A stretch of DNA of 64,000 bases from assembly GCF_000174015.1 (NCBI RefSeq), contig NZ_ACFE01000001.1:248001-312000 (forward strand), written 5' to 3'. A program made the translations under genes and the position numbers. Within the stretch, counting starts at the first letter, position 1, and every line of letters starts with the position of its first letter. This DNA is from Lancefieldella rimae ATCC 49626 (GTDB lineage Bacteria; Actinomycetota; Coriobacteriia; Coriobacteriales; Atopobiaceae). This document shows, piece by piece, positions 42,309 through 43,072 of the stretch. Under the pieces are notes generated by a model. The model saw only the letters and a list, made by a program, of their open reading frames with translations, ran no database searches and had not been told where the DNA came from.

Positions 42309-42793
42309 GATTTCCGGCCTTCGTGACTGCTCATGCACTCATTCAGACCTTACTGGCAACCATTGAAAGTGCGTTACTTTCCGCTCTTTTCATTCCCTTT
42401 GCCCGGTATCCAGCCGTTCAAGAAATGACATACCTTATCATCAGCGTTGGATTGCTTCTTGCCATTAGCTTTATGGCGGCCGTAGTCGGCGTTCATGTGT
42501 TGATTAGACGCAACAACTTTCTGGCCGTTTCCTTTAGCAGCGTCTTACTGATTACTTTTGCCGGTGCATTCTATCCCATTGACTCACTTCCAACATGGGC
42601 AGCTACAATTGCCGCATACAACCCTATCACCTATCTTGTAGACATTATCCGAGCTGCCCTCTTTGGCATAGAGCCATTGCTGACGCCTCCTCTTGAGATA
42701 GGCATTTGCATAGCGTTTCTTGTTGGCCTCATTATTGCTGCGTTCTGTGTTGCTCATTGTCCATTTGATACATCAAACGTACAGAACGTATGA
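42309..42793 (+). pseudogene. C-terminal fragment of an ABC-2-type permease
   Basis: The plus strand encodes about 160 residues with four hydrophobic segments (AHALIQTLLATIESALLSAL, YLIISVGLLLAISFMAAVVG, SFSSVLLITFAGAFYPID, IGICIAFLVGLIIAAFCVA). The motif FYPIDSLPTWAATIAAYNPITYLVDIIRAAL is characteristic of the C-terminal half of ABC-2 multidrug/nodulation-type permeases. The first half and any ATPase are absent; the open frame upstream runs into the antisense of the toxin remnant. Treated as a truncated relic. Confidence 0.72.
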
Positions 42794-42876: not shown

Positions 42877-43072
42877 CTGTGAGGTACTTTTGCAGAGCTG
42901 TGAGGTACTTTTTTATGGCGATAAGACCGGTTTTCTCGCCAAAAGTACATCACAGCCCCATGTTTTGAAGCAGAAAAGTACATCACAGGTTGTGAGAAGT
43001 ACATCACAGGTCACAGGATGTACCTCACAGGTTGTGAGAACTACATCACAGCTCGTCAAACCCACCTCACGG
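42877..43072. repeat. 21-bp iterated repeat array (GTACMTCACAG units)
   Basis: Eight degenerate copies of an 11-bp core GTACMTCACAG. Five forward copies begin at 42978, 42999, 43020, 43041 and 43062, exactly 21 bp apart. One more forward copy is at 42945. Two inverted copies are at 42877 and 42898, again 21 bp apart. Two units also contain TCACA-GGT-TGTGA dyads. The second inverted and first forward copy can pair into a 16-bp imperfect stem (42897-42956). The array ends 18 nt after the stop codon of the export permease. It fills an otherwise gene-free stretch of about 300 bp. Confidence 0.85.

Follow-up and report, generated by a model that had tools for sequence, protein, structure and literature searches.

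The window analysed here is a 64,000-nt stretch of the genome of Lancefieldella rimae ATCC 49626, and the positions collected in Table 1 make up one whole copy of a repeated element. To its left, positions 42314-42793 encode the C-terminal part of an ABC-2 type permease whose N-terminal half is missing; this part is fused in frame to unrelated sequence, and the region looks rearranged. The preliminary description had reported eight copies of GTACMTCACAG, of which five follow each other at exactly 21 bp, one precedes these by 33 bp and two form an inverted pair, themselves 21 bp apart; all of this is confirmed, coordinates included. It did not mention a 24-nt hairpin, which gives the element an overall symmetry, with the inverted and the direct units arranged on its two sides.

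Table 1. Parts of the element copy in the window (window coordinates).
Feature	Position	Strand	Remark
Whole element copy: inverted motifs, hairpin, 33-bp step, direct 21-bp tail	42877..43072	.	homologous to 12 further copies in the genome
Inverted 11-mer CTGTGAGGTAC	42877..42887	-	
Inverted 11-mer of the central pair CTGTGAGGTAC	42898..42908	-	47 bp to the first forward motif in 13/13 copies
Central hairpin GGCGATAAGACCGGTTTTCTCGCC	42917..42940	.	palindrome also found alone in other genomes of the family
First forward 11-mer GTACATCACAG	42945..42955	+	
Conserved 22-nt spacer with TTTTGAAGC, makes the 33-bp step	42956..42977	+	step kept in 13/13 copies; TTTTGAAGC also in the G002 siblings
Forward 11-mer, start of the 21-bp tail	42978..42988	+	
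Forward 11-mer, tail unit	42999..43009	+	
Forward 11-mer GTACCTCACAG, tail unit	43020..43030	+	
Forward 11-mer CTACATCACAG, tail unit	43041..43051	+	
Degenerate last tail unit CCACCTCACGG	43062..43072	+	mismatches to the consensus at 4 of 11 positions

Used as a query against the genome from which the window comes (1.63 Mb in 9 contigs, on whose searches our whole-genome statements rest), the array was recovered at 13 separate places, on four contigs and in both orientations. All 13 copies follow one plan: an inverted 11-mer is separated by 47 bp, measured from motif start to motif start and with the hairpin in between, from the first direct 11-mer, and the next direct 11-mer comes 33 bp later, after a conserved spacer with the consensus CCCCNTGTTTTGAAGCAGAAAA, which contains TTTTGAAGC. 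The tail beyond this consists of 21-bp units and their number differs between copies, while the geometry of the core is constant; 11 of the 13 also have another inverted motif 21 bp towards the outside. The elements are non-coding, measure about 90-220 bp and, by an ORF-based test, all lie outside the long flanking ORFs. Aligned in register, the 13 copies have a mean identity of 0.79 within the core; in the flanks it is 0.24-0.25, the drop to the 25% baseline occurring directly beyond the element, so that its edges are sharp. The closest pair, formed by the window copy and a second copy (L002), is 98% identical in unrelated surroundings.

The array is far beyond chance, because exact GTACMTCACAG occurs 47 times in this genome against once for the reversed-pattern control. 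The motif is nearly confined to the elements, 44 of the 47 occurrences falling inside them; the exceptions are one in the window, within a dnaJ-like coding sequence, and two that were judged by eye to be chance matches. The observation that the units keep their core while the spacers vary holds for the whole family, with mean pairwise identities of 0.86 in motif columns and 0.75 in spacers, and this higher conservation of the motif would allow either selection on binding or homogenisation among units. The TCACA-GGT-TGTGA dyad, from which each unit had been taken for a small palindrome, is indeed present in two window units, but across the 13 copies only about 4 of the 31 good tail units carry it, and it is therefore a trait of one subfamily and no part of the repeat unit as such.

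Two local arrangements concern the surroundings of single copies. L002 and a further copy, L003, stand in inverted orientation around a 379-aa ORF (L003 298-1437; contig 5, ~75.2-76.4 kb), which we rejected as a co-carried gene since it has no Pfam match and we did not see it next to any other copy. Directly left of the element, a segment of ~55-70 bp is common to L005 and L008 only, with its last 15-20 bp shared by L007; it was set aside as a two-copy segment.

How is the element distributed among relatives? Two of the copies, one in the rplA-rplJ interval (L004) and one after nagB (L006), have no counterpart in two other genomes, G002 and G003, in which the genes on either side are conserved. 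The intergenic flanks there are too diverged for an exact reading, and the limits of the empty sites are not precise to the base. Paired motifs were found in 2 of the 140 genomes of the bacterial family, and an exact-pattern scan of 84,980 species genomes returned only 6 scattered matches, in other phyla. Phage and plasmid collections gave no DNA match to the element, and a phage or plasmid origin was rejected on this ground; a single viral contig holds a motif pair with other spacers and was judged unrelated.

The second carrier is G002, of the same genus, which holds two sibling copies with the same scaffold and another 11-mer, GTACTACACAG. In the better of them the units, CTGTGTAGTA / TACTACACAG, are spaced by 22 bp; it shares the type of hairpin and has GCTTCAAAAG...CTTTTGAAGC on either side. 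The 11-mer is thus changed in all units, and the hairpin and TTTTGAAGC are unchanged.

Taken together, the copies form a genuine family of dispersed repeats, miniature, modular and phased with the helix, and they are most likely non-autonomous mobile DNA. Among the three roles first proposed for the array (a regulator-bound array, a structural element in the permease 3'-UTR and a relic of a mobile element), the last fits best, given 13 dispersed, sharp-edged copies and empty orthologous sites. In our judgement the element of which the window array is one copy is probably a mobile repeat of modular build, miniature and non-autonomous, with phased inverted motifs that would act like transposase-binding ends. 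By analogy with known systems, it may have spread as a MITE-like unit in which the phased 11-mers served as multi-site recognition ends. The 11-mers, which a spacing of two helical turns per unit places on the same face of the DNA and which are inverted on either side of the central hairpin, would be bound by a transposase or a comparable recombinase acting in trans; tail units could be gained and lost through slippage or unequal recombination, and this genome now seems to lack the cognate enzyme. Transposases with multi-site ends are found in Tn7 and Mu as well as in IS21.

Several observations do not sit easily with mobility. Copies differ in how many outer units they have, which the ends of a defined transposon would not; the motif columns are the more conserved ones, which neutral decay after insertion alone would not give; and the empty sites lack a precise boundary. 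No target-site duplication was detected: the longest word shared by a copy's own flanks averages 3.8 nt, against 4.0 nt for mismatched flanks, with ragged element ends and diverged empty sites. The genome yielded no transposase-bearing element with matching ends, its motif pairs occurring only in the 13 elements. The sole ORF with an rve domain (PF00665) that we found in it has an internal stop (L028, contig 8, 252372-252659).

The strict 21-bp phase, the better conservation of the motif than of the spacers and the scattering of copies over the contigs could also be read as the signature of binding arrays for a host protein, be it a nucleoid, chromosome-organising or transcription factor, which would bind cooperatively along a single face of the DNA; the arrays would then be retained for their use to the host. 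The different 11-mer on the same scaffold in G002, as if tracking a changed protein, points the same way. We nevertheless consider this explanation unlikely: there are no solitary operator-like sites, copies are missing at orthologous places in close relatives, the neighbouring genes are of unrelated function, and so few genomes of the bacterial family have the paired motifs. The array for a conventional dimeric regulator that the preliminary description had suggested is weakly favoured, as operators at fixed promoter positions outside the arrays were not found, with 3 of 47 motifs outside the elements and at least one of these inside a gene.

A bolder proposal builds on the same exchange of motifs. 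The scaffold, i.e. hairpin, TTTTGAAGC and inverted phased array, is kept across species, while the 11-mer is swapped in every unit at once (GTACATCACAG versus GTACTACACAG, at 21 versus 22 bp). Tentatively, this could mark a fast-evolving pair of DNA-binding protein and multi-site repeat, an undescribed system of genome-wide phased arrays; we hold this to be rather improbable as well.

The element could act instead as RNA, transcribed from neighbouring genes, its nested stem-loops protecting or terminating the transcripts. Its predicted fold is very strong (z = -7.2), yet inverted repeats force a fold whatever the reason for their presence. Similarly, the paired columns amount to 88.8% over the 13 copies and include 8 double-changed cells, where shuffles gave 3.8, but these pair statistics are inflated by the relatedness of the copies. 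Moreover, the outer 21-bp tail is without a pairing partner in most copies, and no terminator-like site occurs in or near the element. A function in RNA therefore seems to us a poor prospect, less credible than a host-protein array. No known RNA family was recognised either, as tRNAs are the only Rfam matches in the window that reach gathering scores.

The preliminary description had itself named a reading that would undo its own, namely that the period reflects a translated heptad-repeat protein (STSQVVR / TTCDVLL). One frame, the STSQVVR one, is open through the core in 11 of the 13 copies, against a mean of 6.3 in a simple simulation, but the copies are related and the count is not independent. 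The synonymous/nonsynonymous count gives no support to a protein, synonymous changes being in excess in none of the frames (26 against an expected 22.8, P = 0.24), and divergence is flat across codon positions; there is thus no sign of a maintained protein. Nor was a homologous peptide found in phages, plasmids or viral contigs. We regard this origin of the period as highly improbable, and the short heptad ORFs at such sites should not be annotated as genes.

Finally, a 3'-UTR element of the permease finds no support and the array is not specific to that gene: the 12 other copies stand beside unrelated genes, and no element follows the permease orthologue of A. parvulum, of the same genus, where the gene order differs.

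If the mobile-repeat reading is taken up again, which known systems does the element resemble? Pneumococcal BOX (boxA-boxB(n)-boxC) is likewise small, dispersed, intergenic and modular, combining a fixed part with variable tandem units and predicted stem-loops, as does our element with its constant core and variable tail. Open frames on both strands have also been reported for BOX (PMC3049150). The likeness is an analogy of layout only and implies no sequence relation; the repeated unit of the present element is a motif phased at exactly two turns and also inverted across the hairpin, and there are only 13 copies.

With MITEs (Correia/NEMIS, RUP, ERIC and others) the element shares a size below ~220 bp, the lack of a gene, a dispersed and mostly intergenic location, inverted repeats and, as a short, non-coding, multi-copy sequence, sharp edges. 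It differs in that neither a target duplication nor a partner transposase was found, an autonomous partner with matching ends being absent from our searches of this genome. Furthermore, the inverted repeats on both sides take the form of arrays of multiple short phased motifs in 13/13 copies, in place of one long terminal repeat, and the ends are ragged.

The ends of IS21, which are bound by IstA, offer another parallel: each side has at least two direct repeats, spaced by about two turns of the helix and in opposite orientation to those of the other side, an arrangement that the element has too. These IS21 ends are described as L1/L2 and R1/R2 repeats (PMC11208146). In several IS21 left ends from the same bacterial family we noted, by eye, direct repeats ~22-24 bp apart, against 21 bp here, and no transposition gene lies between the arms of our element. 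The genus gave no IS21 match above the cut-off, and we therefore do not claim that the element descends from IS21; IstA and IstB were not found in the window's genome.

REP/BIME sequences with RAYT are also intergenic palindromes combined into composite repeats. The present element differs from them in its low copy number and in having no GT(A/G)G head in any of 13 copies and no Y1 transposase. PF01797 (Y1/RAYT transposase) is absent from the window's genome and from G002, and a RAYT/REP identity was rejected because the former has no Y1 transposase. Y1 (IS200/RAYT-like) genes do occur in two congeners without the element (L213 in G003, L214 in G004).

The kind of family is thus known, being MITE- or BOX-like; its unusual features are the inverted, phased layout and the replacement of the motif from one species to another. 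It adds to the small interspersed repeats one with a strictly helically phased inverted design. We did not find it described in the open-access papers searched, and its novelty is provisional. If the 11-mer does co-change with a protein between close species, such elements would offer a natural series for the evolution of transposase ends or DNA-binding arrays.

The layout principle is not restricted to this element. A second family in G002 and G003, unrelated in sequence, has AAATCTGCTAAG...GTTGGTGGG units that recur at 31 bp and are inverted around a short hairpin; with its CAGTTGGTGGGT units and TTAGCAGATTT ends, it is built on the same principle as the 21-bp element. Copies or fragments of this 31-bp family (L218, L219, L215; G002 and G003) adjoin both sibling elements of G002. 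The central palindrome, too, has a life of its own, since GGCGAGAA-N8-TTCTCGCC (24 nt) is present in 44 of the 140 genomes of the bacterial family, against 0 for the control. Roughly half of 29 examined places with the solitary palindrome are intergenic by a crude ORF test. One genome, G056, holds 22 exact solitary copies, and some palindromes stand at orthologous places in two species (L030, L047, L031, L103).
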